DNA of 64,000 nt from Pirellulaceae bacterium. Its GTDB lineage: Bacteria > Planctomycetota > Planctomycetia > Pirellulales > Pirellulaceae. A program made the position numbers and the translations under genes. The notes below the pieces were generated by a model. That model searched no databases. It saw nothing but the letters and a program-made list of their open reading frames with translations, and had not been told where the DNA came from. The stretch lies in NCBI GenBank assembly GCA_026004775.1, contig BPJU01000002.1, positions 366,435 through 430,434 on the forward strand, in the 5' to 3' direction. Below, in pieces: positions 24,442-45,143 of the stretch. Numbering within the stretch: the stretch's first letter is position 1; every line of letters starts with the position of its first letter.

Positions 24442-24494
24442 AGGCCCCCTCCCGCTCAGCAGGCCCTTCCTTCACTCCGTTGGTTCGTGCCACG

Positions 24495-24821: not shown

Positions 24822-25069
24822 CTGGAGGTTCCTCACAAAAAACGACCGTTCTTCCGCGCCGCGGCTTCCCAACCGCTCCTACGCCGGCCTCTTGGCCCGT
24901 GACGCGGTGCTTCTGCTGAACTATAGGTTACCGGTAAAGAACGAGTGGCTCGGGTGAAAGAAAAAAATAGAACGCGGCGGGAGACTACCGTAGTGTTTGT
25001 AACACCTGTAACGCCGGCCGCTGATCGCAACTGGTCGTGCGGTACCACACCCGGTTGCCCTGGGAAATA

Positions 25070-25408
25070 CTACTTGTGGTCGTGACCCACCACGCGTCCG
25101 TTACTGTCCAAACGGTATCGTGAACCGTCGACCGGGCAAACTGGTAGTCCGTCCGGAAAATAACCCGGGTCGCTACCGATATCCGACAGATCACCGGCCG
25201 GCCAGCGACCTGTCGCCTTGTACCACAGGATGGCCTGCACTTCGATTTCGCCTTTGTGGACCTGGCAGGCGTCTCGTTTGGCTTGCAATGACTGCTTGCC
25301 GAAACGGGGAACGATCAATCCCGCCAGGATGCCAAGGATAACCACGACAGCCAGTAGCTCCAGAAGTGACAGTCCCCCGCGGCGGCTATCGGGTCGATTG
25401 TGGACCAT
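25070..25408 (-). CDS. gspG: GspG-like major pseudopilin (copy 1)
   Basis: This 112-residue pseudopilin starts at the ATG at 25408, with AGGAG 8 nt upstream. The signal is RRGGLSLLELLAVVVILG. The body has DLSDIGSDPGYFPDGLP, CPVDGSRYRLD and a GRVVGHDHK end. Two cysteines (in DACQVHKG and PVCPVDG) are also conserved in the pseudopilin at 15036, and could form a disulfide. About 250 bp separate it from the next pseudopilin gene. That space contains a low-GC patch but no gene I can support. Confidence 0.86.
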   Translation of the reverse strand: MVHNRPDSRRGGLSLLELLAVVVILGILAGLIVPRFGKQSLQAKRDACQVHKGEIEVQAILWYKATGRWPAGDLSDIGSDPGYFPDGLPVCPVDGSRYRLDSNGRVVGHDHK

Positions 25409-25435
25409 GGTGGCACTCCTGATCAATGTATCCCA

Positions 25436-26608: not shown

Positions 26609-26623
26609 AAGGCGGGCTCCTTA

Positions 26624-28312
26624 TCAGCTCGACAGCTTGAAGTAGACCTCTTCCAACGTGGTACGGCCAGCCATCGCTTGCTGGACCCCGTTCCATGCCA
26701 ACTCCTGCATCCCTTCGGAAACGGCGATCTCGCGCAGCTTGGAGGTGGGGAGCCCCGCTTCGATGGCTTTGATCAACTGGGGGGAAACTACCAGGATCTC
26801 GTAGATCGGAATTCTCCCGACGTAGCCGGTGCCGCCGCATTTCTTGCAGCCTTTGCCCGCAAAAAAGGTGGCGTTTTCCGGAACGGGGCGGTCCTGGAAA
26901 AGAAGCTCCAGCAGCCGCGGGTTCGGCTGAACCGGCTCTTTGCAATGCGGGCAAATACCCCGCAACAGCCGCTGCGCGTAGGCGGCCAACAGAGCGGCGG
27001 CAATCTTGAAGCGGTCCACTCCCAGATCGTTCAATCGCGGGATGGCACCGACGGCGTCGTTGGTATGTAACGTGCTGATCAACAGATGTCCGGTGAGGGC
27101 CGCCTGCACCGCCGTGGTGGCCGTTTCGTGATCGCGGATTTCACCCACCAGAATCACGTCCGGGTCTTGACGCATCAGGTATTTCAGCGCGTTGGCAAAA
27201 CCCATCCCGAACTCGTTGTTTGCTTGCACCTGATTGATTCCCGGCAACCGGAATTCGACCGGGTCTTCGACGGTGGAAATGTTGTACAGCGTCGAGTCGA
27301 TGTTGCTGAGCATCGTGTACATGGTGGTGGTCTTTCCGGAGCCTGTAGGACCGGTGACCACAATCATGCCATGCGGTTTGTCGATCAGCATGCGAGTGAT
27401 TTCGATTTCGCGTTCGGTCATCCCCAACGCTTCGAAGGTGAAGACGCGGTTGTTCTCGTTCAACACGCGCAAGCAGACCTTTTCGCCGATCACGGTGGGG
27501 ATGGTACTGACGCGAAAACTGGCTCGCAGGCCGCCGTCTTCGATCGTCAAGTTGCCGTCCTGCGGTTTGCGTTTCTCGGTGGTATCCATGTCGGCCATCA
27601 CTTTGATCCGCCCCACCACGGCCTCTTCGGTGTGCTTGGGGATCGTCATCACCTGCTGGAGGTTGCCATCGATGCGGTAGCGCACACGCATCTCGGGTGT
27701 GTGCGGTTCCAGGTGAATGTCGCTGGCCCCGGCATGGACGGCCCCCATCAGAATCGAGCGTACCAGACGCACCACGGGGGCCTCTTCACTCTCGGGTTCA
27801 GGCTCAGCCGCTTGTGCCGCTTCCTGCTCAACCCGAGACCGTAACTCATTTGCCTTGATGTCGACGATCGTTTGCCGGGCCGCAATGCGTTCGTCAAAAC
27901 ACGCATCCAGCGTCTCCAGCAGGTCGGTGTGCAACGTCACCACCGGCTCGACACAGTAGCCGGAGATCAGTTCCGCTTCCGAAATGGCTTCCATGTCGTC
28001 CGGGGCGACCATCGCCAACGTCATGCAGCCGTCGTGCACTTCGACCGGCACCATCTGCCGCTGCCGGGCCAGCGATTCGGGCAATAGCCGCACCACCTGA
28101 GTATGAACCTGGTCGGGGTGGACCCGGCGGAACGGCACCTCAAACTGCTCGGCCAGAGCTTCCCCCAACTGATCGACCGTGATCAGCCCGCGACTCAACA
28201 GCACCGCCCCAAGCATGCCCCGCCGTGCGGCTTGACTCTGCAAACACTCCTCGAGTTGCTCGGAAGTGAGCCAACCGCGGCGAACCAAGATGTCACCTAA
28301 GCGTCCCGCCAT
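26624..28312 (-). CDS. gspE: GspE/PilB-type secretion ATPase
   Basis: This is the cytoplasmic assembly ATPase of the type II secretion / type IV pilus family, 562 residues. An N-terminal MshEN-type domain (about 1-145) contains LGDILVRRGWLT. The ATPase core has Walker A GPTGSGKT (321-328), the Asp box STVEDPVEF (346-354), Walker B DVILVGEIRD (385-394) and STLHTND (413-419). A zinc-binding tetracysteine C454-C457 and C489-C492 is complete, as in GspE. GGAG lies upstream of the ATG. It is the first structural gene of the cluster, followed by gspF. Confidence 0.95.
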   Translation of the reverse strand: MAGRLGDILVRRGWLTSEQLEECLQSQAARRGMLGAVLLSRGLITVDQLGEALAEQFEVPFRRVHPDQVHTQVVRLLPESLARQRQMVPVEVHDGCMTLAMVAPDDMEAISEAELISGYCVEPVVTLHTDLLETLDACFDERIAARQTIVDIKANELRSRVEQEAAQAAEPEPESEEAPVVRLVRSILMGAVHAGASDIHLEPHTPEMRVRYRIDGNLQQVMTIPKHTEEAVVGRIKVMADMDTTEKRKPQDGNLTIEDGGLRASFRVSTIPTVIGEKVCLRVLNENNRVFTFEALGMTEREIEITRMLIDKPHGMIVVTGPTGSGKTTTMYTMLSNIDSTLYNISTVEDPVEFRLPGINQVQANNEFGMGFANALKYLMRQDPDVILVGEIRDHETATTAVQAALTGHLLISTLHTNDAVGAIPRLNDLGVDRFKIAAALLAAYAQRLLRGICPHCKEPVQPNPRLLELLFQDRPVPENATFFAGKGCKKCGGTGYVGRIPIYEILVVSPQLIKAIEAGLPTSKLREIAVSEGMQELAWNGVQQAMAGRTTLEEVYFKLSS

Positions 28313-28436
28313 CAGGATGAACTCCTCTATAGGCCACCGCGACGTCTTCTGTCCGTGGCAGGAGGGCGTGCCCTCCCGTTTCCCTAAACAAGCAGACGCG
28401 TTGCCGCACCTGCCCGCTTGTGGTTACGGCTGTCCG

Positions 28437-28835
28437 TCAAGTACCGACCGCTTCCCATTCTGCCACCAACTGCTCGACCTTGCGGTCCAGCGCCAGTGGA
28501 TCGTAGGGCAGAACGAGAAAATCCCGGGCCCCGGCCCGAAATGCTTTCTGGACTGTGTCCAATTCGGCATCCGTGGAAAGAACCAGTACCGGTAGCGCCG
28601 CCGTCGTCTCGTTGCGACTGACCGCATCCAACAGTCGCCATGCCTGGCCGTCCTCCAGCCGCAAGTCCACCATCAACAACCCTGCCGAGTCGTGCTCCAG
28701 ACCAGCCAGCGCCGCGTCCGCATCGTCATAGACAATCGGTTGAAAGCCCAACAGGTTCAGCCGGAAAGCGGTGACGTCGGCCAGCACGCGGTCGGGTGTG
28801 ACCAGTACCACGCGTCCGTTTGATTGCGTCGCCAT
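28437..28835 (-). CDS. Stand-alone receiver-like protein with a degenerate active site
   Basis: I start this at the ATG at 28835 (132 residues), with GGAGG about 10 nt upstream. It has the response-regulator receiver fold: VVLVTPDRVLAD, then LLMVDLRLEDG, then VLVLSTDAE and FLVLPYDPLAL. The phospho-acceptor aspartate (in MVDLRL) is present. However, the usual second N-terminal acidic residue is replaced (TPD), and the conserved lysine before Pro is Leu (VLPYDP). Phosphorylation-dependent switching is therefore doubtful. There is no output domain. It lies 124 bp upstream of gspE and may regulate the machine. Confidence 0.8.
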   Translation of the reverse strand: MATQSNGRVVLVTPDRVLADVTAFRLNLLGFQPIVYDDADAALAGLEHDSAGLLMVDLRLEDGQAWRLLDAVSRNETTAALPVLVLSTDAELDTVQKAFRAGARDFLVLPYDPLALDRKVEQLVAEWEAVGT

Positions 28836-29319
28836 GCGATCGTTTTCCTCCAATTGCTGGAATGCCCCTCAAGATAAGGTAGGTTGCGCGTTGTGTGAGT
28901 CAAAAGCCAAACGAAAACCAGGAGACCAAAATGATAGTACCTCCCAGACCTCCGAGTATTATGAAATACAGCAAGCTTTTGTCTTCCGTGGCCCCCCACT
29001 GAAAAATTCAAACGAATAAAACCACGGGTATGTTGGTGATTGCCACAAGCGGCACAAATTCCCTACAACCGGCACGGGCGTTACCAGCCGCAGCACATAA
29101 CATTCCTTCCGTGACCGCGTGCATCTAAAGCTATTTCGTATTGGTCGAACTCACATAACAGTTAGAATCGCCACGGAACGTAGAATGCGAATAGACTGTA
29201 TGAATGCCTATCACCTTGAAAAATTATCAACGAAAAGGTTCTGCTGCCAATTTTATGATGATTGGGAACCATGATATATGAGGTAAGAAGGGTGACCTAT
29301 ACCGGGAGAGGAATATCAT
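28836..29319. other. AT-rich divergent intergenic region
   Basis: About 480 bp lie between the receiver gene (minus) and the GspC-like gene (plus). The base composition is clearly lower in GC than its surroundings, especially 28870-29030 and 29100-29300. No open frame here has a ribosome site or recognisable sequence. It should contain the promoters of both transcripts of the secretion locus. I cannot place them with confidence. Confidence 0.5.
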
Positions 29320-30108
29320 ATGGTCGGGCGCAAGCGGGCTGTCGCGTACGGGCTCATCGCGGTGGGGCTGGTCTTGGCAGGCTACTATGTGGTTCGGCCG
29401 AAAGGCGAGACGCCGGTTGTCGAGCCGAAACCAGCCGGGTTGGCACAGCGTGAGCTTCTTCCGCCGGCCGGCCCGGCAAGCCCCGCGACAGGAGGAACGA
29501 GCGGCAGCGACCCGATGGACGACGATCTTTCGAGTAAAGAGACTGTTGCATCGGCGGCCGAGCAGACTTCGGGCCAGCAGCAATTCAATCTGTTTGCCCC
29601 ACCCAAAATAGAGATGCCGGTGGTGCGCGAGCGGCAGTCGGGCGAAGAGAAAGAGTCGGTGCGGCTGGTGGGTTTCGTCAATGTGGATAAGTTGAAAGTG
29701 CTGCTGGCATTCGAGAGCGGATTGAGGGCGATGGAGGTCGGTGACGTTTATCGCAAGGTCGAAGTGGTACAAATCGACCCGCCGCGCGTAACCCTCCAAA
29801 AGGGGCAGGAACGATGGATTACGACGCTTTTTGATCAACCCGTGATTCACACAACACACCAGGAAGCAGGCCCCCGTGCTTCGCCGCAAGTAACGATTGG
29901 TAGCAGCGCCGGGCGCTCCCCGTTCGCGCCGATGGCATCGGGCGGCGTTGCCAGCCCACCCGGCGGCAATACGTCTTCGCCGGCGAACCATTCCGAACCG
30001 GAGATCTTCGGTGGGCTTGCGGCGCCACCCGGCATTGACGACTTGCCGATGCCCGAACTTCCGGAACTGCCACCGCTGCCCGGCCAGGAACCGAAAAAGA
30101 CCAAATAG
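29320..30108 (+). CDS. GspC/PilP-like periplasmic protein
   Basis: The 262-residue protein has one N-terminal membrane helix (residues 8-24), a Pro/Ser linker and a QFNLFAPPK segment. A compact domain at about 114-171 (VRLVGFVNVDKLKVLLAFES, then AMEVGDVYRKVEVVQIDPP) has the strand pattern of the GspC HR domain or PilP. A disordered, proline-rich tail follows. GGAGAGG lies 8 nt before the ATG. GspC/PilP proteins bridge the inner platform to the secretin, and this is the only such component seen here. The gene diverges from the minus-strand cluster. The family call is from pattern and context, so it is moderate. Confidence 0.65.
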   Translation: MVGRKRAVAYGLIAVGLVLAGYYVVRPKGETPVVEPKPAGLAQRELLPPAGPASPATGGTSGSDPMDDDLSSKETVASAAEQTSGQQQFNLFAPPKIEMPVVRERQSGEEKESVRLVGFVNVDKLKVLLAFESGLRAMEVGDVYRKVEVVQIDPPRVTLQKGQERWITTLFDQPVIHTTHQEAGPRASPQVTIGSSAGRSPFAPMASGGVASPPGGNTSSPANHSEPEIFGGLAAPPGIDDLPMPELPELPPLPGQEPKKTK

Positions 30109-31118: not shown

Positions 31119-34100
31119 CTAACGGGTTTCAACCCAATTGACGACACGCACTCCGGCAGCGAACGGGTATTCATAAGCACCGATTTCCCATTTGCCGTAT
31201 TTGGGGCGCGTCAAGCCGAGAATGTCGACATCCACCTTGCCCGGCATGTCGCGTCCCTGGTTGATGGCGGCCGACGCAGCCGAAAGCGAAAAGTCACCGG
31301 CCGACGGATCGGTGAAAGCCGGATCGCCCGCAATCAGCGCTTCGGACGAGACTGGCCCGCGTGCCGGCACGCGGTAGCCGTATATCAGGTTGTTGCCGCT
31401 GTACATGCTGCCGTTGCCGGTAACCACGATGCCGTAGCTCCCACCCGGCGCCGCTACGATCGTATTGATCACCTGGGTCTGCCCGCCGTACTGGTAGATG
31501 CCATAACCGGGACAATAGCCCACGGTCGAATTCCAGAGTCGCACCGAAGTGTTTCGGTCCGGAAAATGGTATAGATAGGCACCGCGACTACTATTTGCCA
31601 ACACGGTGTTGCGCAATAATAGCTCACTTCCGTAGCTCAGAAGAGCCCAATCGGTGTGGCCTTGGATGATCGAGCGATCCACCACGGCGTTGTTGGAATA
31701 GTATGTGTAAATTCCTCGCCGTGATTTACTCCTGTCTCCCAGGAATACACATTGCTCGACTATCAGATTGCCGTAGTAATTCACCAGACCATAACTTCCA
31801 TATTGCTCGACCCGGCAGGAAGCCAGTTCCAGTTGGGCCGGATTGTTACGGTCTGAAGAGTGGTAAATGCCGTAGCCCGAACAGTTGCGAACCACCAGTT
31901 GTTGCACGACCGGCGGCACCTGGTCCGCACGGCTCCAGATGTACACGCCGTGGCCGACACGCTCGATCGGCGAGTCCTTGGCGACGAGTGACGCGGACTG
32001 CAATCGGATGGCCCACGAACCAATATCTGCAATCGTGCAACCGTCCAGCACCACGTGGCAGGCTTCAGCGTAGAGGCCATACGCTCCGTTTTTCGATAGG
32101 TCGATTCCTGCCAGCAGCCTTTTGCCGTCGGGCTCATCCCCAGACACATATAACCCATATCCATTGCCGGAAAGAGCTCGGTTGTCACCGGCAAATGTCA
32201 GTCGCGAATACCGCACGACGGCGGCCCAGTAGCGGTTTTCCGAAATGCTTGTGTTGTCCAATGTCAGGTGTGCGTAGTTCACATATGGGCCGCCGTAGTT
32301 GCGCAACACGTTGCAATTGGCCAGTCGCACCACGGCCCGCTCCTCCCACGGAACACTCGCCGAATCATGGGCATAAACGGCGTATCCACCCGAGTTGTCG
32401 CTGATCGTACAACGAATCAGTTCCGCATTTCCTTCATAGCAATACACTCCGTACGACTGGCAGGCCGTGATGGGAGTATCAACTATCCTGTAGCTGCCAA
32501 GGCCGCCGTCTTGCCGCCGGCAGTACAGGTAGATGCCGGCCCGATTGGCGGATATGCTACAGCCGTTTATTTCTACATTGCCATGATAGGAGACAATCGA
32601 CCAGCTTCCGTTGTTCGCCGATTTGCAGTTTTCCAGACGCAGCGTATCGCGTGCCTGCGAAGCTCCTGAATGGTAGATTCCATATCCGCTGTTATCCGTC
32701 ACTTCGACACCAGCGACCACGGGCCGATATCGGTTGGCTGTGCTGCTTGTGATATAAAGCCCGTGTCCGTTGTTCTTGATGGGGGAACGAACCGCAGTAA
32801 CAGAGCCGCCGATCACCGCCATCCCCCAGCTTCCCATTTTCTCAATACGGCAGTCTTCCAGTTCCAACCGGCAATCAACGGCGTAAAGTCCATACGCACC
32901 GTTTTCGGATACATTCAGTCCGCGTAAACGCCTGGGCCCTTCCGGGCCGTCTCCTGCCAGGTACAACCCGTAACCATTGCGCTGGATCGCGTAGGGCTGG
33001 TTGATAATCTGGAAATCTCCCCGGTTGCATACGATGCCCCAATAGGTGTTTTGCTCGATGCGCGTGTTGTCGATGACCAATCGCGCGTAATAGACGTAGG
33101 GTCCGCCGTAGTTGCCGGTGATCTCGCAGTTGCGCACGGCCACCTGGACTCGTTGGTCCCAATCCACATTGGGGTCTTCGTAGCAATAAACTGCGTAGCT
33201 TCGGCTGTTGCCGCTCCATTGGCAACGGGTGGCTTCGACGGACGAGTGCGTCGTATGCAAACCATACGACTGGTTGTTGGTGATCTGGCAGCGATCGAGC
33301 CGGTGGTTGCCGGGACCTCCGTTCTGGCGATGGCGGTACAGATACAAGCCGCCCCCATTGGCGTCGAAGACCGAGTTTTCTATCACGGCATTGGCATAGT
33401 ATGAAACCAACGCCCAGCTCTTGTTTCCCCGCACGCCGGCATTCTGGACAGTCAGCACGTCGGGGTCTTGCCAGTTGCCCGAATGATAAAGCCCGTAACC
33501 TGAGTTGTTGACGACTTCGATCCCCTGTAACACCGGACGGTAACGATTCGATGCGCGGCTATAAACCACGATACCGTGTCCGTTATCGCGGATGGGCGAG
33601 TTGTCAGCCTTGAGCGAGGCTCCGTTAAGCGCCAAGCCCCAGCTTTGCATTTTTTCGATACGGCAATCGGTCAGTTCCAACTGGCAATCCAGGGCGTATA
33701 TCCCATAGGCCCCGTTGTTGGATACATCCAAAGCGTGAAAGCGTCGAGGTCCTTCGGGGCCATCCCCCGCAAGGTACAGCCCGTAGCCATTGCCTGTAAT
33801 CGCGTACGGTTGATTGACGATCTGAAAATCACCGCGATTGCAAACCAATCCCCAGTACGTGTTGTTTTCGATGCGGCAGTTGTCAACACGAAGCAGCGCG
33901 TAGTTGACATAAGGACCTCCATAATTTCCCGTGATGGTGCAGCGCGTTAAAGTGGCCTGGACCCGTTGCTCCCACGGCACATCCGCCTGCTCATTGCAAT
34001 AGACCGCATAACTTCGGGTGTTGTTGGTAATCGCGCAGTCGGAAGCCATCACGCCAGCGTGATGGGCGTAGATGCCGTAGGAGTTGCAGTCGGCGATCGA

Positions 34101-36266
34101 AGTGGATTGAATCCTGTGGGATCCGGGGCCGCCGCTCTGGCGGTTGTTGTACAAGTAAACACCACCGCCGCACCGGGAAACCGAGCAGCCGGCCAAAGCG
34201 GCGTTGCCGTAGTAGGAAACGAAGGCCCAACTGCCGTTGCTGCGAATGGCGCAGTTCTGGAGCGTCACTTCGTCCGGCTGCCGCCAATCGGACGAGTGAT
34301 AGACACCGTATCCGGAATTCTGTTCCACGACGGCCCCCTCGATCGAAATCCGCACGCGATTGGCGGCGTTGCTTACCAGCCGCAGGCCGTGGCCGCTGTT
34401 TTTGATGGGGGAGTTGTGGAACGTAAGCGAGGCTCCGTGGGCCAGCACCGCCCACCCTTGCATTTTTTCAATGCGGCAGTTGCGAAGCTCCACCTGGCAG
34501 TCGCGCAGGTATAGGCCATACGAGCCGTTTTCGGAGACATCGAGACTGTCGAACCGCCGGTTTCCCTCCGGGCCGTCCCCGGCCACATAGACGCCGTAGC
34601 CGTTTCGTTTGATGGCGGCCGCCTGCCGCTCAAAACGAAAATCGCCGTAGTCACACACCAGCCCCCAGTACCGGTTTTCTTCGATGACGCATCGGTCGAT
34701 CGTCAGGCGACTGTAGCGGGCGTAGGGGCCACCGTAATTCTTGGTAAGGTCGCACTGCCGAAGCAGCACCTGGGCACGCCGGTTCCAGCTCTGCTGCCCA
34801 TCAGCGACCGCATACACGGCATAACCGCCGTTGCCGGTAACCTGGCAGTCCTGTACCGTCACGTCCGCATAGTAGCTTACGATCCCATATGCTCGATTGC
34901 CGCTGATGGTTGACTTGTGCAACGACAGATCGCGGCTGTTAGCGACCGCAACGTAGTTGTGTAAGCCATGACCGCCGTTTTGGGATGACACACAATCGCG
35001 AACAGAGAGTTCGCCGTAATAGGACAAAATCCCGTGACTGCCGTTTTCCGCAATCACGCAATTTTGTAATTGTGTCTTGGCAGGTGCGGAGGGATTCGAA
35101 TAGTGGTAAAAACCGACTCCACGATTACCCCGGATTTCCAGATTACTGACAGAAAGATCGCCGTACGAATCATGGCTGTAGGCGAGAACCCCGTGGTAAT
35201 TGTTGCTGACCAGGCTGCCGCGCCCGTCCACCGACGAGTACATCAACACCATCGCCCAGCCGTCGTTGTCCTGTATGCGGCAGTTGCGCAACCGCAGGTC
35301 ACACAGCACCGCGTACAAGGCGTAGCTGCCGTTGTTGGCGAAGACATAGCCGTCCAGTTGAACTTTCTTTTGGTTGGCGGGGGCGACCAGGTATAATCCA
35401 TTGCCGTTGTTGGAAACGCCCGGCGTTTGTCGCTTGAATTCCAGTTCACTGTAAGCTGCGACGATCCCCCAATAACGGTTTTGCTCGATGCGCGTGTTTT
35501 CCACGATCAGGCGGCCGTAACTCACATACGGACCACCGAAATTTTCGCGAATGCTGCTGTCGCGAAGATGCACGGTACGCGGGCGGTTCTGGTCCGACAC
35601 GTGGTAAATCGCGTAAGCTCCGGCCTGGCGTATGTCGGTTTGTAACAAAGTCAGGTCTTGCCGATAACTGATAATGGCATAAGAACGCAACTGCTCGAAC
35701 AGGCACTCAGCGACCACCGCTTCGCTGTCCGATGCCACCAAGCCATAGACGACGCCCGGCTCAAACCGGCACCGCCGCAACTCCAGACCGGAAGACGCGG
35801 TGGCATAAATCCCGTAGTTGTTCGCGGAGCTGGAGGGGCGCAGGGTGAAGCCTTCCAAGACGTAGTGCTCCGCGCGATCCAGCACGAAGCTGTAGGTGTT
35901 GTTGGGTGAGATCACGACGGGACCGCTATCGCCGGTGTAGACCCCGGTAACGTCGGCGACGAACCGGATCGGCCGGTTGGGTTGCCCGGAACGCCCACAA
36001 CGCACCGATTCGTTGTACGTGCCGCCGCCTACATACACCACATCCCCCGGAGCCACCACTTGGGCAGCCCGGCTGATCGTCCTCCACGCCTGCTGGGGCG
36101 AGCCCCCGGAAGCACTGTCGCTGCCCGACGTACGCACGTAGTACGTTCTCCCCGAGCCCTGGGCGCAAGCGACGTCGCCGGGTAAGGGTGCGCCGATCAT
36201 CGCGAGCCAGCAAGACACCAGACACGCAATTCCACCCAGGCGCGGTACAAAGCTTCTTTTTTTCAT
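31119..36266 (-). CDS. Giant secreted right-handed beta-helix protein with 271-residue super-repeats
   Basis: The start is taken at the ATG at 36266 (1715 residues); the frame is open further to 36413. Residues 1-35 form a signal peptide ending ACA|Q. The N-terminal domain (YYVRTSGSDSASGG, then PGDVVYVGGGTYNE) is the entry to a parallel beta-helix of the pectate-lyase/DUF1565 type. The body repeats short rungs such as NSGYGLYHS and SWALVSYYAN. A larger period of exactly 271 residues is marked by NYGGPY at 510, 781, 1052 and 1323. A more diverged first copy (NFGGPY at 242) lies 268 residues earlier. The C-terminus has DPAFTDPSAGDFSL and WEIGAYEY, typical of beta-helix proteins. No catalytic motif is evident; carbohydrate or surface binding is a guess. 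Confidence 0.9.
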   Translation of the reverse strand: MKKRSFVPRLGGIACLVSCWLAMIGAPLPGDVACAQGSGRTYYVRTSGSDSASGGSPQQAWRTISRAAQVVAPGDVVYVGGGTYNESVRCGRSGQPNRPIRFVADVTGVYTGDSGPVVISPNNTYSFVLDRAEHYVLEGFTLRPSSSANNYGIYATASSGLELRRCRFEPGVVYGLVASDSEAVVAECLFEQLRSYAIISYRQDLTLLQTDIRQAGAYAIYHVSDQNRPRTVHLRDSSIRENFGGPYVSYGRLIVENTRIEQNRYWGIVAAYSELEFKRQTPGVSNNGNGLYLVAPANQKKVQLDGYVFANNGSYALYAVLCDLRLRNCRIQDNDGWAMVLMYSSVDGRGSLVSNNYHGVLAYSHDSYGDLSVSNLEIRGNRGVGFYHYSNPSAPAKTQLQNCVIAENGSHGILSYYGELSVRDCVSSQNGGHGLHNYVAVANSRDLSLHKSTISGNRAYGIVSYYADVTVQDCQVTGNGGYAVYAVADGQQSWNRRAQVLLRQCDLTKNYGGPYARYSRLTIDRCVIEENRYWGLVCDYGDFRFERQAAAIKRNGYGVYVAGDGPEGNRRFDSLDVSENGSYGLYLRDCQVELRNCRIEKMQGWAVLAHGASLTFHNSPIKNSGHGLRLVSNAANRVRISIEGAVVEQNSGYGVYHSSDWRQPDEVTLQNCAIRSNGSWAFVSYYGNAALAGCSVSRCGGGVYLYNNRQSGGPGSHRIQSTSIADCNSYGIYAHHAGVMASDCAITNNTRSYAVYCNEQADVPWEQRVQATLTRCTITGNYGGPYVNYALLRVDNCRIENNTYWGLVCNRGDFQIVNQPYAITGNGYGLYLAGDGPEGPRRFHALDVSNNGAYGIYALDCQLELTDCRIEKMQSWGLALNGASLKADNSPIRDNGHGIVVYSRASNRYRPVLQGIEVVNNSGYGLYHSGNWQDPDVLTVQNAGVRGNKSWALVSYYANAVIENSVFDANGGGLYLYRHRQNGGPGNHRLDRCQITNNQSYGLHTTHSSVEATRCQWSGNSRSYAVYCYEDPNVDWDQRVQVAVRNCEITGNYGGPYVYYARLVIDNTRIEQNTYWGIVCNRGDFQIINQPYAIQRNGYGLYLAGDGPEGPRRLRGLNVSENGAYGLYAVDCRLELEDCRIEKMGSWGMAVIGGSVTAVRSPIKNNGHGLYITSSTANRYRPVVAGVEVTDNSGYGIYHSGASQARDTLRLENCKSANNGSWSIVSYHGNVEINGCSISANRAGIYLYCRRQDGGLGSYRIVDTPITACQSYGVYCYEGNAELIRCTISDNSGGYAVYAHDSASVPWEERAVVRLANCNVLRNYGGPYVNYAHLTLDNTSISENRYWAAVVRYSRLTFAGDNRALSGNGYGLYVSGDEPDGKRLLAGIDLSKNGAYGLYAEACHVVLDGCTIADIGSWAIRLQSASLVAKDSPIERVGHGVYIWSRADQVPPVVQQLVVRNCSGYGIYHSSDRNNPAQLELASCRVEQYGSYGLVNYYGNLIVEQCVFLGDRSKSRRGIYTYYSNNAVVDRSIIQGHTDWALLSYGSELLLRNTVLANSSRGAYLYHFPDRNTSVRLWNSTVGYCPGYGIYQYGGQTQVINTIVAAPGGSYGIVVTGNGSMYSGNNLIYGYRVPARGPVSSEALIAGDPAFTDPSAGDFSLSAASAAINQGRDMPGKVDVDILGLTRPKYGKWEIGAYEYPFAAGVRVVNWVETR
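31736..35543 (-). repeat. 813-bp (271-residue) tandem super-repeats inside the beta-helix gene
   Basis: Copies begin, using the NYGGPY codons as anchors, at 34739, 33926, 33113 and 32300, each exactly 813 bp apart. A diverged copy at 35543 is 804 bp from the next. Other anchors, such as NGYGLYLAGDGPEG, give the same 271-residue spacing. The second and third full copies are very similar, the outer ones less so. This suggests internal duplication or unequal crossing-over, with the newest copies in the centre. Confidence 0.9.
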
Positions 36267-36333
36267 GCCACACTCACTCGGCAACCTACTAGCCAATCGG
36301 AAAAAGTTCGGTATAGCGCAACGACGTGCCTGA

Positions 36334-36384
36334 CGACCCTTTTCGGGAAGCGACCCTTTTCGGGAAGCGACCCTTTTCGGGAAG
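36334..36384. repeat. 17-bp tandem repeat, three copies
   Basis: The unit CGACCCTTTTCGGGAAG occurs three times head to tail, followed by a partial CGACCG. Each unit contains the short dyad CCCTTTTCGGG. It lies about 70 bp upstream of the beta-helix start codon. It is inside the extended open frame but outside the coding region I accept. Confidence 0.9.
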
Positions 36385-36418
36385 CGACCGCGACGGCGGC
36401 CGGCCCGACACAACGCGA

Positions 36419-36841
36419 CTACCCGTTCGGTTCGTCGCCGGAAAACGCGTCGGGCAGTTTCGGCTCCACCGGCGGCAGCTCCAGCTCTTTGGGCACCGGT
36501 GGCGGCTGGGACGGATCGGCTTCGCCCAGCGGTTTTGCTTCCGGCTCGGGCGGCTTCGGCAACTCCGGTAGCGGTGGTAATTCAGGTACCGCCGGCGGTT
36601 TCAGTACCGGCGGCAAGACGTCGTCCGGAAGACGGATCTCTTCGGGATAATCTCCCCGTTCCGATGGTGGCACTGTATCCGGCGCGGGACCGCCATGGCT
36701 GGGCGCGGCAGCCGCGCCGGCTGACACGCCAGGCTCTGGGCGGCCCTCTCGGCCAGTCCGATGGCAGCCGGTCGCTGAACTTGCCACTGACATGAGCACC
36801 ATCACCCACAGCAGCCGGTTTCCAATCGGCATACGGTACAT
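36419..36841 (-). CDS. Small proline-rich putative lipoprotein
   Basis: The 140-residue protein has a lipoprotein-type N-terminus: basic start, hydrophobic core, then SSATGC with Cys26 as the likely lipidation site. The mature part is almost entirely Pro/Glu/Leu-rich, with ELPPLPELPKPPEPEAKP near residues 90-107, and has no fold I recognise. It probably spans or extends from the membrane as a rod or linker. An ATG at residue 4 is an alternative start. It is upstream of the beta-helix gene on the same strand; no functional link is proven. Confidence 0.68.
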   Translation of the reverse strand: MYRMPIGNRLLWVMVLMSVASSATGCHRTGREGRPEPGVSAGAAAAPSHGGPAPDTVPPSERGDYPEEIRLPDDVLPPVLKPPAVPELPPLPELPKPPEPEAKPLGEADPSQPPPVPKELELPPVEPKLPDAFSGDEPNG

Positions 36842-37150
36842 GGCAGAGAACCTTTCGTTGGCTCGGCCAGTCCCGGCGCACCTCCGCGCTCAGAAAGCGG
36901 TGACGCCGGGGATCGCCGTCAGGGGTGATACGCTGGATAGTCGCTTGGATCTTCGGGTGAAGCTTTGGCCCTGTCCCACCGGCCACTACAAGCCTAGCTT
37001 ACAGATCGCCGGGGCTGACACTTCTTTGTGGATGGGTGCAGGAAATAGAGACTGAGTAATTCTGCGCGGCTGCCGGGCTTGTGATACGTTTTTCGAATAG
37101 AAAGCAGCTACGGGCAAAAGTACACCGCAACAGTTTGACAAGCAGATCAC
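36842..37150. other. Intergenic region without a recognisable feature
   Basis: About 310 bp between the anti-sigma gene stop and the lipoprotein start, both on the minus strand. It presumably contains the lipoprotein promoter. I see no terminator hairpin with a T-run, no RNA gene and no supported open frame. Confidence 0.4.
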
Positions 37151-38458
37151 TTAGCGAGCATTTCGTACCGTCGCTTCCGAACGCACGACCAGCAGTACCT
37201 TAAAGAGAATCTGTTCCATTTCAGCCAGATTTTCCGGTTGTAGCGAGGGAGTGTCGGTGTTGGTCGGCGGGAGGTTTTCCGGGCTGGCTTGCGATTCGCC
37301 ATTTTGTTTGCGCTGCGCTCGCAGCAAAGCGTCGGACAACCGGGCGCGAACTTGTTCGTCCAGTACCAGCGGATGCACGCCCACCAAGCCGGCAGCATTC
37401 TGAGTGCGAGCACTTTCCGATTGCCGTTCCAACAGAGAAAAGAGAGCCGAATCACTCGTTCCCAGCGCCAAATCCAGACGCAGCAGCGAAACATCGCCGG
37501 TAGTCCGCAGATCATACAGACGCTGGAGAAACGCATCGATCTGCCGGCCGGTGGCCACCAGAAAATAGATGCGAAAGTAAGAAATTGTTGCGGGACTGCC
37601 CACCTCCTCGGCCGGCAACTCCTGTGGCCCCAAGGCTCCGAAGAAACGCTGTCCCAGCAAAGCTTTCTCAAGCGCCGGATCGACCCCAATGGCTTGGCTG
37701 GTCGGAATACCGACTTCGTTCCACGTCTGTTCCACTACCCGTTCGGTCACACCTTTGTCGGTGAGGACCAAGTCGATCACCATAGCAGTCAAAGGGAGCA
37801 TCTGGCCGGGTCCGGAAGAGTCGATACGCGGCGTAGGGGGTAAGGTGTGGGAAGGCTGAGGCGAACTAGCGATTCGATCCGGCGGCACCGCGTCGCTGCG
37901 AGGCTCAGACTGCGGAGCCGGAACGTTTCTTTCACCCGGCTGGCGGCTCGCGGCGCCTGCCACGGCGGAAGCCGGTTCCGGCAAAGGAGCCGCATCGGTT
38001 TGTTTCGGCCCGTCGTTACGCGGTGCTGTTTGCTGCCCGGGGTTCGTGACACTCTTTGGGCCGCCGACGAACGAGTCGACCGGGCCCGTTATACGCGGCG
38101 GACGATTCCAAGCCAGATAAAGGGCGCTACCGAGAACAAGGATGGCGGTCGCAGCAACGGCCAGCCACGACCAACGCCATAACAGCAAGCCTCGGGCGTT
38201 TAGGGTCGAAACGGAAGACCTCCGGTTGACACCTCGTTCCCGTCGAGCTTTTTCAAGGATGCTCCCCGCCACGTCGTACGATGGACTGTAAGTAGGCAAA
38301 TCACGGACGGCTTGCCGAATCGCCAGCAACTCCTCGTAATATTGCCGCCACTCGTCCGACGATCTGATGTACGCCTCCGCTCGAGCCTGCTCGTCGGCGG
38401 TTACTTCCCCGTCGACATACGCGCTCAATAGCTCACGGATCCGCTCGTCCTGGGTCAT
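37151..38458 (-). CDS. Probable anti-sigma factor, membrane bound
   Basis: The ATG at 38458 gives 435 residues. The N-terminal domain (ERIRELLSAYVDGEVTADEQ, then a helical stretch to about 55) is the usual start of anti-sigma factors. It lacks the HxxxCxxC zinc motif. One membrane helix lies at about 92-117. A long Pro/Ala/Ser linker and an extracytoplasmic alpha-beta domain of about 170 residues follow. The gene follows an ECF sigma factor on the same strand, about 260 bp downstream. Its role as that factor's inhibitor is inferred from the pairing. Confidence 0.8.
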   Translation of the reverse strand: MTQDERIRELLSAYVDGEVTADEQARAEAYIRSSDEWRQYYEELLAIRQAVRDLPTYSPSYDVAGSILEKARRERGVNRRSSVSTLNARGLLLWRWSWLAVAATAILVLGSALYLAWNRPPRITGPVDSFVGGPKSVTNPGQQTAPRNDGPKQTDAAPLPEPASAVAGAASRQPGERNVPAPQSEPRSDAVPPDRIASSPQPSHTLPPTPRIDSSGPGQMLPLTAMVIDLVLTDKGVTERVVEQTWNEVGIPTSQAIGVDPALEKALLGQRFFGALGPQELPAEEVGSPATISYFRIYFLVATGRQIDAFLQRLYDLRTTGDVSLLRLDLALGTSDSALFSLLERQSESARTQNAAGLVGVHPLVLDEQVRARLSDALLRAQRKQNGESQASPENLPPTNTDTPSLQPENLAEMEQILFKVLLVVRSEATVRNAR

Positions 38459-38718
38459 ATCATGTCGTACCCACCAACCGGTTCGTGATCCCGCTTGGGC
38501 CACCCAGCTCACCGAAGCTGGGTAACCACGACAACGTACCCGCTTGGCAATGGCCACTGCAAAAACTTGATAACCTGCCTCGTTTCTCTGGCCCCTCTTT
38601 CAATACTTCCACTAGTCCATCGACGCATAAAGTCCGCAGCGACTGCTCGTCTGGCTCCCTGTAATAATGGTTGGGCCCGGCACCGGGCGGATCGAAATTG
38701 CCGGTGTCTTGCAGTTTT

Positions 38719-39282
38719 TTATTCAGGTCGCTCCTTCATTTCCTGGAGCAAGATTTCGCGTAGCTGAGCGCGAGCCCGGTGGATGCGACTGCGTACGGTT
38801 CCGATCGGCACGCCGGTGATCTCGGCAATCGTTTCGTAACAGCAACCCTCCAAATCCCGCAAGATCAAAGCTGTCCGAAACTCGGTACTCAACCGTTCCA
38901 GTGCCGCCCGTACCCGAGCCACTTCTTCGGCCCGCTCCAGCGGAGCCGTGACGTCCGCATCGGGCTCCGCCGGTTCGACCGCACCTATCCGCCGCAACTC
39001 CTCCACCGACAACTCGCCTCGCTGCCGCCGCTGGAAAGTCACCGCCAGGTTGAACGCAATCCGATACAACCACGTATAAAACGAACTATTCCGTTGGAAT
39101 CCATCCAGGTTGCGGTATGCGTTCCAAAACGCCTCCTGCAATACATCCTCAGCGTCGCTGCGCGAGCCGAGTATGTGAACCAGCGCCGTCAGAAGCCGCG
39201 ACTGGTAGCGTCCCACCAGTTCCGCGAACGCCTGTTCGTCACCGGCAACCGACCGATCAATCAAATCAAAATCGCTGTCCAC
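38719..39282 (-). CDS. ECF RNA polymerase sigma factor
   Basis: This 187-residue sigma-70 family protein of the extracytoplasmic-function type starts at GTG. Region 2 contains DAEDVLQEAFWNAYRNLDGF and FYTWLYRIAFNLA, and region 4 has the helix-turn-helix YETIAEITGVPIGTVRSRIH. The linker between them is short and acidic, and there is no extra C-terminal domain. It most resembles RpoE-like stress sigma factors. The anti-sigma candidate lies downstream. A possible self-recognised promoter is described separately. Confidence 0.93.
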   Translation of the reverse strand: MDSDFDLIDRSVAGDEQAFAELVGRYQSRLLTALVHILGSRSDAEDVLQEAFWNAYRNLDGFQRNSSFYTWLYRIAFNLAVTFQRRQRGELSVEELRRIGAVEPAEPDADVTAPLERAEEVARVRAALERLSTEFRTALILRDLEGCCYETIAEITGVPIGTVRSRIHRARAQLREILLQEMKERPE

Positions 39283-39645: not shown

Positions 39646-41625
39646 TTACAGCTCCCCTTGATCCCGGTCCGCCAAATCTTCTAGTTCGGCTTCGAAACCA
39701 CCGGACAGAATGGGAAAGCGGCACCAGGTTTTCGGATCCAGGTTTTCATCGTCCAGGTGGAATGAGGGTGCATAGCGTTCGCGTTTCCATTGATTTCGCG
39801 ACCAGAGACGGAAGAAGCGATTTACCCACGTGCGTAGCGATTCGAGCGAAAGATCGGGATAGAGTTCCTGCAAGCGGATGAGTACTTCTTTGGGTGAGAG
39901 TTTATCCCGGATGGCAGAACGCTCGATGGCGTCCAATATCGGGTAAGGCATCAGATCGGCTTCGTCGGTCTGCTGGTATTCGGCGGGCCGCAATTCGGCG
40001 GTGGGCTGCTGGGATGTGACGGCGCTCAGGGCCGGTAGTGGGCCGATCTGCTCGGGACCCTGCTTCTCGACCCAGCGCAGCCATTCCAGCAGGAAGGCTT
40101 TGTCGATACCGGCGATGGGGGCCAAGCCGCCGCTGGTGTCACCGTCCATGGTGGCGTAGCCGACGGCGGCTTCCGAGCGGTTGCTGGTAGAAAGTAAGAG
40201 GCCACCTTGCACGTTGGCCAGCAGCCAGACGCTGGGAGAACGGGCACGGGCCTGGATGTTTTGCAGGGCGACATCATCGGTTTGCCAATCCAGGCGGCGG
40301 CCGAGGGCAGCTTCCACCAACTGTTGGTAACCCTGGACGATCGGATCGACATCAAAATAGTAGAATCGAGCACCGAGCGATTCGGCGACCGCTTGGGCTG
40401 CCTGCCGAGTGATCGGCCCGCTGTGGCGTGTGGCCTGATAGACGCAGGTGAGCCAGGAGGGCATGGCCTGTTCGGGAGAGGCAGCGTGTGGCAGATACGG
40501 GAACTGCTGCCAGATCTGTTCCGGACCGCACTCGTTCCATGCCAGTTTCAAGGCACAGCCGGCCAGGAAGGCCACGGCCGACGAATCGGCTCCACCGCTG
40601 AGCGACACGACAAAACCGCGGCTGCGGCTCTTGCGCAGATAATCATAAAGCCCAAGACTCACAGCCCGCGTGAATTCCTCATGCTTGACGAACGGCCCGT
40701 TTTCCCAGGCATCGGCCGGCACCACATGCGGTTCCCCCAACCGCGATGGGAAAGCAAACGGATCCAGGACGGCGTGGACCGGCGAGCCGATCGCGGGGCG
40801 GTAGCTGGATAGCCGGGCTCGCTGGACACGCCCGACGTCCAGGTCCACCAGGTCCGAGACGAGCAACCATTCCCGGAAACTGAAACGCCTTCCGACCGCC
40901 AGCCGCTGGCCGCAGGCAATAAGAGCGTCTCCGTCATAGATAGCACGTCCCGCTTCATTGCCGAGAAGATTGGCGTAGACGTACGCGGCATGGAATGCCC
41001 TCGCTCCTTCCTGAACGAATCGCTTGCGGATGGCTTGTTTTCCGAAAGCGAAATGGCTGGCGCTGGGATTGAGAATCACATCCACGCCGGCCCGTGCCAG
41101 CCGGCAACCGGGGCGTTCGGCCACCCAGGCATCTTCACAGATTTCGAAGCCGATCCGCACCCCCGACAAGTCGAATACCAGTTCACCCAGCGGCAGGCAG
41201 TGGTCCTCGATCCGCAGCGATACGTGCTCGCCGGCCGGCCACGGTTTGAACCAGCGGGGCTCGTAATGGATCCCATCGCCGGCCAGGTTCTGTTTGGCCA
41301 CCAGTCCCAGGATGCGGCGGTCGGCGACCAGCGCGGCGCAATTGTAGACGGCTCCGTGATAGGCGACGGGTAAGCCAAACGAGACCACCAGCCCACCGGT
41401 TTCCTGACTCAATTCCAAAAGACAGTTCCACGCTTGGCGCACCACGTACGGCGCATGGAAAGCATCTTCACACCCGTACCCGGTGATGCATAATTCCGGC
41501 AGGCACAAGATGGCCACACCGCGCCGGCGTGCCTCCTGGATCACCTCCCGAATACGCCGCGTGTTGCCTTTCCAGTCGAGCGGCGTTTGGTTGAGCACTG
41601 CCGCACCGACGTGCAACCGCTGCAT
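39646..41625 (-). CDS. nadE: Glutamine-dependent NAD+ synthetase
   Basis: This is the last step of NAD synthesis: deamido-NAD is amidated with ammonia released from glutamine. The 659-residue protein joins a nitrilase-type glutaminase domain (1 to about 280) to the synthetase. The nitrilase triad is Glu45 (LPEL), Lys111 (VAKQNL) and Cys163 (EICEDAW). The ATP pyrophosphatase loop SGGADSS is at 343-349. The full length and both active sites argue for a functional two-domain enzyme. It is followed downstream by the ECF sigma gene and has no pathway neighbour here. Confidence 0.95.
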   Translation of the reverse strand: MQRLHVGAAVLNQTPLDWKGNTRRIREVIQEARRRGVAILCLPELCITGYGCEDAFHAPYVVRQAWNCLLELSQETGGLVVSFGLPVAYHGAVYNCAALVADRRILGLVAKQNLAGDGIHYEPRWFKPWPAGEHVSLRIEDHCLPLGELVFDLSGVRIGFEICEDAWVAERPGCRLARAGVDVILNPSASHFAFGKQAIRKRFVQEGARAFHAAYVYANLLGNEAGRAIYDGDALIACGQRLAVGRRFSFREWLLVSDLVDLDVGRVQRARLSSYRPAIGSPVHAVLDPFAFPSRLGEPHVVPADAWENGPFVKHEEFTRAVSLGLYDYLRKSRSRGFVVSLSGGADSSAVAFLAGCALKLAWNECGPEQIWQQFPYLPHAASPEQAMPSWLTCVYQATRHSGPITRQAAQAVAESLGARFYYFDVDPIVQGYQQLVEAALGRRLDWQTDDVALQNIQARARSPSVWLLANVQGGLLLSTSNRSEAAVGYATMDGDTSGGLAPIAGIDKAFLLEWLRWVEKQGPEQIGPLPALSAVTSQQPTAELRPAEYQQTDEADLMPYPILDAIERSAIRDKLSPKEVLIRLQELYPDLSLESLRTWVNRFFRLWSRNQWKRERYAPSFHLDDENLDPKTWCRFPILSGGFEAELEDLADRDQGEL

Positions 41626-42848: not shown

Positions 42849-44096
42849 ATGAGCGGCGAACAACCGGCGCGAGTCAGTGTGGATGTGGAGGTCAGCGGCC
42901 ACATCATTGATAGTCTGATTCTGCCCAAAATCCTCGACCAGATCCTCACTCGGGGCGGGCGTTTCGAGATCAAGTCGTTTCAGATCGGCCAGCAGCGCGA
43001 CGATCCCAGTTATGCGCTGATTGAAGTGCAGGCCGACCAGTGGTCCAAGTTGGACGAAATCCTGGCCAGTATTGCCGACCATGGGGCAGTGCCGGTCAAT
43101 AATTTGGATTGCCGCCTGGAAGCGGCTGACCTGGACGGCGCTTTCCCGGAAGGGTTCTACGCTACCACCAACCAGCGCACGGAAGTAAGGATCGATGGGC
43201 AATGGATACCGGTGGAAGATCAAGAGATGGATTGCGGGATCGTGGTCGATCGCCAGGAACGGAAAGCTCGTTGCGTGGCGATGGCTGACGTGAAAAAAGG
43301 CCAGTGGGTGGTGGTCGGCTATAACGGAGTTCGGGTGTATCCGCAGGAGCGCACGGCTGAGCGGCACAGCGAATTCGAGTTCATGACCAGCGCCGTGTCG
43401 ACCGAAAAGCCCAAGGGGGTGGCGATTCGGCGGATAGCGACCGAGATGCGTCAGGCACGGAGCGAAGGCGGCCGGATTCTGGTCGTGGCCGGTCCGGCCG
43501 TCGTCCATACCGGCAGCGGCCCGCATCTTTGCCGCCTGATCCGCGCCGGTTATGTCGACGTTCTTTTTGCGGGAAATGCGCTGGCCGCCCACGACATCGA
43601 AGAAGCGTTGTTCGGGACCAGCCTGGGGGTGCGGCTGGATCGCGGGGAGATCGCCGAAGCGGGCCACGAGCACCACCTGCGGACCATCAACCGCATCCGC
43701 CGCGTGGGAGGGATTCGCCGAGCGGTGGAGCAAGGGCTGCTGGCACGCGGCATTATGTTCGAATGCGTCCGCCACGGAGTCGATTTTCTGCTGGCCGGCA
43801 GCATCCGGGACGACGGCCCCCTGCCGGAAGTGATCACCGATGTGCTCGAAGCCCAGCGGCTCATGCGGCGAAAGCTCCGTGGCGTTACCTTTTGCCTGAT
43901 GCTGGCCACCACCCTCCATTCCATCGCCGTGGGAAACCTGTTGCCCGCGTGGGTGCGTGTCGTCTGTGTCGATATCAATCCCTCGACCGCCATCAAATTG
44001 AGCGATCGGGGCTCGATCCAGACATTGGGGCTGGTGACGGACGTGGAGCCGTTTTTGAGAGCGCTGGTGGATGAATTAGAAATTTCTGACTGTTAG
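42849..44096 (+). CDS. TIGR00300 family protein (LOR/SDH region; ornithine cyclodeaminase-like half of AgrE)
   Basis: This 415-residue protein starts at the ATG at 42849, with a near-perfect AAGGAGGGAGC ribosome site; the longer open frame overlaps the opposite gene. It is the TIGR00300 'LOR/SDH bifunctional enzyme' family, found alone in some archaea and bacteria and as the C-terminal half of cyanobacterial AgrE/ArgZ. Archaeal and cyanobacterial members are linked to conversion of ornithine to proline and ammonia. Seen here are an N-terminal LOR-like domain (SGHIIDSLILPKILDQIL, then FEIKSFQIG) and a Rossmann-like C-terminal half (RILVVAGPAVVHTGSG). The gene immediately precedes the arginine dihydrolase-like gene, which makes the assignment much stronger. 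Confidence 0.88.
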   Translation: MSGEQPARVSVDVEVSGHIIDSLILPKILDQILTRGGRFEIKSFQIGQQRDDPSYALIEVQADQWSKLDEILASIADHGAVPVNNLDCRLEAADLDGAFPEGFYATTNQRTEVRIDGQWIPVEDQEMDCGIVVDRQERKARCVAMADVKKGQWVVVGYNGVRVYPQERTAERHSEFEFMTSAVSTEKPKGVAIRRIATEMRQARSEGGRILVVAGPAVVHTGSGPHLCRLIRAGYVDVLFAGNALAAHDIEEALFGTSLGVRLDRGEIAEAGHEHHLRTINRIRRVGGIRRAVEQGLLARGIMFECVRHGVDFLLAGSIRDDGPLPEVITDVLEAQRLMRRKLRGVTFCLMLATTLHSIAVGNLLPAWVRVVCVDINPSTAIKLSDRGSIQTLGLVTDVEPFLRALVDELEISDC

Positions 44097-44225
44097 TTAC
44101 GGATTAGATCATGTGTTAGATAGTGTATTAGAACGCGTCCTATATTCTGTGTCATTCGTGTACTGGATCACGTATCATTTCGTGTATTAAGTGACGGATA
44201 TAGCAGCAGAAAGCTGGTGCCCTGC
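44097..44225. other. AT-rich spacer with reiterated GTGTATTA words
   Basis: The 129 bp between the two arginine-related genes are far richer in A+T than both neighbours. They contain GTGTATTA at 44123 and 44182, plus related words GTGTTAGA (44113), GTGTCATT (44149) and GTGTACTG (44158). The motif repeats could be operator half-sites or a simple low-complexity patch. Confidence 0.4.
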
Positions 44226-45143
44226 ATGAACGACACACCTCGTATCCTGATGTGCCCGCCGGATTACTATGGGATCCAATATGAGATAAATCCGTGGATG
44301 AATCGGAGCCGTCCGGCTGCCCATGCCGAGGCGTGCCGCCAGTGGGAGCAGTTGCGGCGGATTCTGGCCGACACCGGCGCCACGATTGAACTTTTGGAAC
44401 CGGTGCCCGGCCTGCCCGACCTGGTGTTTACCGCCAATGCCGCCATGATTTACCAGCAAACGGCCTACCTCTCCCGGTTCCGGCATCCGGAACGCCAGGG
44501 AGAGGAACCGATTAATGCTCGTTGGTTCTCCGAGCACGGGTACCGGGTGGAGCGGTTGCCGGAAGGCTATTACTTCGAAGGCGCTGGAGACGCTCTTTTC
44601 TGCGGGGACACACTGTATGCCGGCTACCGCATTCGCACGGACATCCGCAGCCACCAGTATATCAGTAGAAAAACGGGGAGGCGGGTGATTTCCCTGGAAT
44701 TAGTCGATCCCTATTACTACCACTTGGACACCTGTTTTTGTCCGTTGAACCACGAGGCGGCCGTTTATTACCCGGCGGCCTTTGACAGTTACGGGCAGCG
44801 TGCTCTGCGCGAAAATATCCCGCTGCTGGTCGAAGTCCAGCCAGAAGAAGCGCGGCACTTTGCCTGTAATGCAGTCGTCGTGGGGCGCCGGGTCGTCACT
44901 AATACGGGCTGCGCACGGTTGCATCAGGAACTTCGCCGCCTGGGGTTTGAACCGGTGGAAACGCCGTTGAGCGAGTTTGTCAAGGCCGGCGGCAGCGCCA
45001 AATGCCTGACGTTGCGGCTGGATGGCGAAGATGCAGCCGGCTGGCGCCGGGAAGCGAAGGCGGCTGACTCGGTGCCCGCGGGGCTTGACTCTCCGTCCGA
45101 TACGCCTCACTTCGACGTTCCCGCAGCCGACGGCAACCTTTAG
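44226..45143 (+). CDS. Arginine dihydrolase-like amidinohydrolase (ArgZ/AgrE N-terminal-type)
   Basis: This protein of the arginine deiminase / DDAH fold is about 305 residues from the ATG at 44226; a GTG at 44217 is an alternative start. In cyanobacteria the equivalent domain hydrolyses arginine to ornithine, CO2 and two ammonia. The key family signatures are present (numbers from the ATG): FTANA (68-72), whose Asn replaces the Asp of arginine deiminases, EGAGD (118-122), YHLDTC with His166, and GGSAKC with catalytic Cys260. These favour dihydrolase over DDAH or deiminase, though this is not certain. It lies downstream of the TIGR00300 gene, and its stop overlaps the stop of the opposite gene. 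Confidence 0.82.
   Translation: MNDTPRILMCPPDYYGIQYEINPWMNRSRPAAHAEACRQWEQLRRILADTGATIELLEPVPGLPDLVFTANAAMIYQQTAYLSRFRHPERQGEEPINARWFSEHGYRVERLPEGYYFEGAGDALFCGDTLYAGYRIRTDIRSHQYISRKTGRRVISLELVDPYYYHLDTCFCPLNHEAAVYYPAAFDSYGQRALRENIPLLVEVQPEEARHFACNAVVVGRRVVTNTGCARLHQELRRLGFEPVETPLSEFVKAGGSAKCLTLRLDGEDAAGWRREAKAADSVPAGLDSPSDTPHFDVPAADGNL

Follow-up and report, generated by a model that had tools for sequence, protein, structure and literature searches.

A two-gene arrangement of a TIGR00300 ornithine cyclodeaminase and an arginine-dihydrolase-like enzyme in a Pirellulaceae bacterium and other bacteria

The locus

Within a 64,000-nt stretch of DNA from a Pirellulaceae bacterium (phylum Planctomycetota; assembly GCA_026004775.1, contig BPJU01000002.1, positions 366,435 to 430,434 of the forward strand), referred to here as a whole as the window, two adjacent genes encode an ornithine cyclodeaminase of the TIGR00300 family (OCD) and an arginine-dihydrolase-like enzyme (ADH). 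Both domain types are joined in the cyanobacterial enzymes AgrE (Alr4995, Anabaena) and ArgZ (Sll1336, Synechocystis). An original prediction, made from the sequence of the window, had recognized the two proteins from their motifs, had read them as the halves of AgrE/ArgZ in OCD-ADH order, and had proposed an independent version of the cyanobacterial nitrogen-salvage route that could show how the fusion arose. The enzymes are of known kinds, and the conserved split arrangement was not found described in the literature searched.

The OCD gene (42849..44096, + strand) is read from an ATG at 42849 to a stop at 44096 and encodes 415 amino acids. The protein scores 547.3 bits on TIGR00300, above the curated cut-off of 410.8, and contains, in the expected order, PF04455 (LOR/SDH N region, residues 12-108), PF21571 (ArgZ-like C first region, 110-193) and PF21570 (Rossmann region, 195-406). 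Its PDB matches are the C-terminal half of AgrE/ArgZ and 3c2q of Methanococcus maripaludis, and its AlphaFold model (predicted local distance difference test, pLDDT, 85.9) retrieved AgrE, ArgZ and 3c2q as top Foldseek matches, followed mainly by deoxyhypusine synthases. Like the archaeal TIGR00300 proteins 3c2q and MJ1480, OCD is a full stand-alone member of the family; unlike the window, the archaeal loci fetched had no dihydrolase gene that could be found in their flanks.

The ADH gene (44226..45143, + strand) encodes 305 amino acids from an ATG at 44226, with an alternative GTG at 44217, and stops at 45143. Its best PDB matches are Sll1336 (E 1.6e-77) and Alr4995 (E 2.8e-73), and its AlphaFold model (pLDDT 89.9) is closest to the N-domain of ArgZ, with a template modelling (TM) score by target of 0.94. 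The best family models are NF052231 (bifunc_ArgZ) and NF052232 (arginine dihydrolase). On the former, OCD and ADH score 456.1 and 299.9 bits as separate proteins, and the cut-off of 1025 is not reached. Identity to AgrE/ArgZ is 48% for ADH and 44-46% for OCD. The coordinates, families and motifs of the original prediction, and its assignment of the two proteins to separate AgrE/ArgZ domain types, are thus borne out by family, PDB and fold matches.

ADH contains the motifs FTANA, EGAGD, YHLD and GGSAKC. Alignment to Sll1336 places N71 (window numbering) in FTANA, E118 and D122 in EGxGD, R137 in GYxxR, and H166 and D168 in YHLD, and these residues are kept in all 28 aligned pair-type ADHs; C260 is kept in 27 of them, the remaining sequence being gapped or cut short there. 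The catalytic Asn, Glu, Arg, His, Asp and Cys of ArgZ are all present in ADH together with the predicted ArgZ fold, and PDB chain sequences and entry titles record ArgZ/AgrE variants in which the Asn (N71S) or the Cys (C264S, C264A) is replaced. The N-succinylarginine dihydrolase AstB of Escherichia coli shares with ADH the Asn of ANA and the Glu, Arg, His, Asp and Cys, but differs in having Met where ADH has the Asp of EGxGD and, by annotation, in its substrate, succinylarginine.

Distribution of the gene pair

Relatives of OCD in named genomes were collected by a scan with an OCD alignment, from which the best 80 of 588, ranked by likeness to the window OCD, were taken with up to 6 kb of flank, and profiles of OCD and ADH were run against the open reading frames of each locus. 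The nearest of these relatives agree with a planctomycete origin of the window. The set of 80 is not a census, and its ranking makes fused proteins unlikely to be in it; all counts of loci below refer to it unless stated otherwise. At least 900 nt downstream of OCD were available at 72 of the 80 loci, the eight others (L081, L084, L101, L103, L108, L115, L133 and L139) having less. ADH lay directly downstream of OCD on the same strand at 24 of these 72 informative loci, and an ADH elsewhere in the fetched flanks or a fused OCD was found at none of the 80. The pairing is thus beyond chance, and the two genes may be co-transcribed. The downstream ADH of L108 (735 nt available) is truncated at the contig end, and L103 has an ADH match by protein BLAST. 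In L096 the ADH adjoining OCD is spread over two open frames (7222-8046), through decay or a sequencing error.

The pair, which the original prediction described from a single planctomycete, recurs in many genomes and in at least six phyla: besides Planctomycetota, these are Myxococcota (L104, L109), Omnitrophota (L108, L125), Armatimonadota (L111), Nitrospirota (L112) and Verrucomicrobiota (L118, L145), with further pairs in records labelled just "bacterium" (L095, L122, L146). Among the planctomycetes with an adjacent pair is a cultured one, Paludisphaera soli JC670 (L100). The gap between the stop codon of OCD and the closest usable start codon of ADH ranges from -4 to about 140 nt, with the exception of L087 (about 475 nt), and is 129 nt in the window.

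A survey of 199 planctomycete genomes, in which the genome of the window is G000, found OCD (TIGR00300 score of 190 bits or higher, a count that omits weaker matches and the fragments in G003) in 40 genomes, nine of which also have an ADH of at least 249 bits on NF052232, here called pair-type. OCD and ADH are adjacent in G000, G105 and G145, fused with ADH first in G077, distant on one contig in G048, G069, G181 and G152, and on separate contigs in G087. Nine further OCD genomes (G015, G043, G045, G066, G083, G101, G128, G163 and G190) have a weaker ADH relative of 114-149 bits on another contig, which lies outside all trees described below, and G080 has one of 26.8 bits. With a fused form in G077 and pairs in several phyla, the fusion is not limited to cyanobacteria, nor the split layout to planctomycetes, which corrects the original prediction on both points. 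In G003 (C68:8604-9159) a TIGR00300 gene lies in three adjoining fragments, possibly a decayed copy or an assembly error.

Relatives of the fused query were also encountered in 80 IMG/VR contigs (L155-L234), many longer than 50 kb, which encode nearly exclusively the dihydrolase half; one viral-labelled contig, L155, has an OCD-ADH pair in the same order. These ADH relatives are either phage genes or belong to mislabelled cellular contigs. Plasmid records searched for fused relatives gave none covering 80% of the fused query.

Proposed pathway and metabolic context

We propose, with a probability of roughly 0.75, that the pair constitutes a two-gene module for arginine catabolism whose OCD belongs to a different subfamily than that of the fused enzyme. 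ADH would strip the guanidine group from arginine to give ornithine, two NH3 and CO2, OCD would cyclize ornithine to proline with release of NH3, and a proline dehydrogenase encoded elsewhere in the genome would carry proline towards glutamate. This would be the reaction sequence of AgrE and PutA, split over two polypeptides from a conserved OCD-ADH pair; in Anabaena, AgrE and PutA together are described as releasing three ammonium and one CO2 from each arginine (PMC8262935). AgrE and ArgZ have the two domains, the active-site residues, the folds and the predicted route from arginine through ornithine to proline in common with the pair, and differ from it in being one fused polypeptide with the dihydrolase first and in having an OCD of another subfamily. 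If so, a pathway known from cyanobacterial fused enzymes extends, as a gene pair, to several other bacterial phyla, and single-function proteins let its two activities be studied apart.

A planctomycete PutA query gave matches at 5 of 84 loci, each of them a pair locus and each divergent from the pair. Matches were near full length in L108, L112 and L125 and truncated at the contig end in L026 (G145), and L109 had the pyrroline-5-carboxylate (P5C) dehydrogenase half alone; NCBIfam classes the L112 protein as a proline dehydrogenase/P5C dehydrogenase. The presence of putA as divergent neighbour of four pairs indicates catabolism of arginine through ornithine and proline to glutamate.

All nine planctomycete genomes that combine OCD with an ADH, whether pair-type or fused, encode proline dehydrogenase, and eight of these nine, including that of the window, have ProA, of the route to proline from glutamate, over the cut-off, so OCD is not their sole proline source. 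ProA is less frequent in the other OCD genomes (8/31 vs 8/9; Fisher p 0.001, uncorrected for kinship), a pattern consistent with a catabolic role in the presence of ADH and a biosynthetic one for OCD without it. A replacement of ProA by OCD across the phylum was rejected, as ProA is equally frequent in OCD-bearing (16/40) and OCD-free (64/159) planctomycete genomes.

Nitrogen salvage, as originally proposed, is plausible for such a pathway, but not by way of cyanophycin in this genome: a synthetase over the cut-off was found in one of 18 genomes (G105) and not in that of the window, and we rejected a link to this polymer.

Cofactor of the cyclodeaminase step

LarB, LarC and LarE make the nickel-pincer nucleotide (NPN), which the OCD step may require. 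NCBIfam names TIGR00300 "ornithine cyclodeaminase, nickel-pincer nucleotide-dependent", and no paper calling TIGR00300 or ornithine cyclodeaminase nickel-pincer dependent was found in the literature searched. G000 has genes for LarB, LarE and, in two identical copies, LarC. LarB is present in all 40 OCD-bearing planctomycete genomes, judged by best E (every one at most 1.7e-68), vs 116 of the 159 others (Fisher p 2e-5, uncorrected for kinship), and is over the cut-off in 31 of 38 further OCD genomes chosen outside named planctomycetes; for the pathway, an older survey gave a frequency of about 9% among some 1,000 genomes (PMC11796402). No LarA match was obtained in 22 of 40 genomes with OCD and LarB, among the nine planctomycetes in G077 only, which suggests another user of the cofactor, OCD being a candidate. 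A tblastn search at E 1e-5 gave no larB, larC or larE beside OCD at 84 loci.

NAD+ is the other candidate cofactor, and the fold neighbours found for the OCD model include NAD-containing deoxyhypusine synthases. The split form makes the choice between NPN and NAD+ testable, since its OCD can be produced by itself in the presence or absence of larBCE.

The two LarC copies of G000 lie on contig C16 (20000-39000, fetched as L247) in two direct copies of about 7 kb that are 99.93% identical (about 23055-30047 and 32009-39000 of the contig), the second reaching the end of the stretch fetched; this repeat is a recent duplication or an assembly artefact.

Origin of the pair and of the fused enzyme

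Trees were built from hand-picked rows, for OCD first from 93 of the 120 domains found and then from 66 rows, and for ADH from 68 of 145 domains, with a 53-row tree for the approximately unbiased (AU) test; the ADH trees are without L096, in which the gene is split, and one alignment (A4) is without L125. Two cyanobacterial sequences only, Alr4995 and Sll1336, entered the comparison of origins. The fused OCD domains of Alr4995, Sll1336 and G077 form one clade with support of 99 in the 93-row and 100/98 in the 66-row tree. In the latter, nine planctomycete OCDs from a second subfamily join them at 100/100, and this group stands apart from the archaeal, actinobacterial and pair-lineage OCDs. Of the nine planctomycete genomes with an OCD of this second subfamily, eight lacked any ADH match; in G045, the ninth, a distant match lies on a different contig. 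An AU test rejected fused and pair-lineage OCDs as a single clade (p-AU 8.3e-5, at a cost of 92.7 log units).

In the 68-row ADH tree, most paired ADHs and five unlinked ones form one clade of 31 rows (96/90), outside which the ADHs of the pairs L146 and L155 fall, and the fused ADHs belong to another clade (97/91) together with ADHs from viral-labelled contigs. Over 28 paired loci, OCD and ADH identities are correlated (Mantel r 0.73; none of 2000 permutations as high), from which it follows that the two genes have travelled together.

Our reading is that the pair is old and stable and that the OCD of the fused enzyme came from another source. Because the OCD of the pair belongs to a different subfamily than the fused OCD, ADH and OCD probably became partners on two separate occasions, once in each lineage. 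This supports the part of the original prediction that called the route an independent version as far as the OCD lineage goes; the ADH tree allows a shared origin. The OCD trees and the OCD AU test speak against the further suggestion, that the origin of the fusion could be read from the split layout: the fused OCDs sit in a subfamily whose other sampled members have no adjoining ADH, and a read-through fusion of the pair would give OCD-ADH, the opposite of the ADH-OCD order of AgrE. Split and fused forms of one pathway thus need not be precursor and product. More tentatively, and at slightly less than even odds, the route could be convergent, several phyla having joined a dihydrolase to another nickel-pincer-dependent OCD subfamily in a two-gene operon, sometimes next to putA, independently of the cyanobacterial fusion; if true, this would amount to widespread nickel-dependent arginine catabolism outside cyanobacteria.

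Alternative explanations

Several results weigh against a two-gene catabolic module with an OCD of its own subfamily. ADH does not adjoin OCD at 48 of the 72 informative loci, the genes are unlinked in five of the nine planctomycete genomes that have both, and no putA adjoins the pair in the window. ADH scores 295.6 bits on the arginine dihydrolase model NF052232, below the cut-off of 450, which is unreached in all 199 planctomycete genomes, even by the fused protein of G077 (349.4), and has nearly the same score, 280.9 bits, on the dimethylargininase model NF045659 (DdahMtb type), also below the cut-off (300). Three actinobacterial relatives, of which two carry the annotation dimethylargininase, have the same catalytic residues.

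With regard to the cofactor, seven of the 38 further OCD genomes have no LarB over the cut-off; in a LarC search that covered 12 of the 38, six of the seven (G205, G206, G207, G211, G212 and G234) also had no LarC match, and four of these (G205, G206, G211 and G234) carry the pair. G212 has a LarB fragment, G236, the seventh, has LarC, and LarC was not found in G202 and G217, both with LarB. These absences count weakly against a strict need for NPN, as most of the genomes are metagenome-assembled. AgrE was crystallized with NAD+ according to the title of 6lrg, and a LarA-like protein of G000 (422.8 bits, cut-off 460) could use NPN, so that its LarBCE need not serve OCD. As to origin, the group for the OCD AU test was picked after inspection of the 93-row tree, and the AU test did not reject one clade of fused and paired ADHs (p 0.193).

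This last result, together with the wide spread of the pair over phyla, speaks for an ancient OCD-ADH association that was ancestral to the split pair and, after rearrangement, to fused AgrE, with loss of ADH in many lineages. We consider such an ancestry doubtful, since the common clade of fused and pair-lineage OCDs is rejected and many ADH losses, to account for the loci without an adjoining ADH, as well as a change of order would be needed.

It is improbable, in our estimate, that ADH is a dimethylargininase or an arginine deiminase that forms citrulline while OCD uses ornithine of another source. The nearly equal scores on the two family models speak for such an activity, as do bacterial dimethylargininase (DDAH) structures as next fold matches after ArgZ (TM by target 0.87-0.88) and the catalytic residues common to actinobacterial dimethylargininase-type proteins; these residues cannot decide between a dihydrolase and a deiminase or DDAH, and we ruled them out as proof of dihydrolase activity. 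ADH is, however, nearer to ArgZ/AgrE in identity (44-48% vs 23-25% for bacterial DDAH) as well as in fold (0.94), the three actinobacterial proteins form a clade of their own in the ADH tree, and pairing with an ornithine-consuming OCD would make a pathway only if the product of ADH is ornithine.

A role of OCD in proline biosynthesis, with ADH merely supplying ornithine, is quite unlikely too: archaeal OCD loci without an adjoining ADH and the lack of a ProA over the cut-off in 23 of the 31 planctomycete genomes whose OCD is accompanied by neither a pair-type nor a fused ADH point that way, but planctomycetes with both genes have ProA and proline dehydrogenase in the proportions given above, a comparison confounded by shared ancestry.

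Spacer and neighbouring genes

The intergenic spacer between OCD and ADH (44097..44225, + strand; 129 nt) has a GC content of 39% over 44097-44216 and two weak promoter-like matches, where 0.7 are expected. A structured RNA was rejected, as its folding is nothing unusual (z -0.35). The spacer contains imperfect repeats of 21-24 nt that resemble GTGTATTA, and BLAST against the rest of the window gave nothing beyond a 12-nt match.

Upstream of OCD and outside the pair, a NAD synthase of the NadE type (39646..41625, - strand), assigned by Pfam, NCBIfam and tblastn, is divergent from OCD, with one small gene intervening. A divergent NadE is found near OCD in four other loci, namely in the planctomycete L070 (61% identical) and in the Chloroflexi L116, L126 and L140. 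LarB uses a precursor of NAD, and the link between NadE and OCD may for this reason exceed chance. In L125, NadE is located beyond putA.

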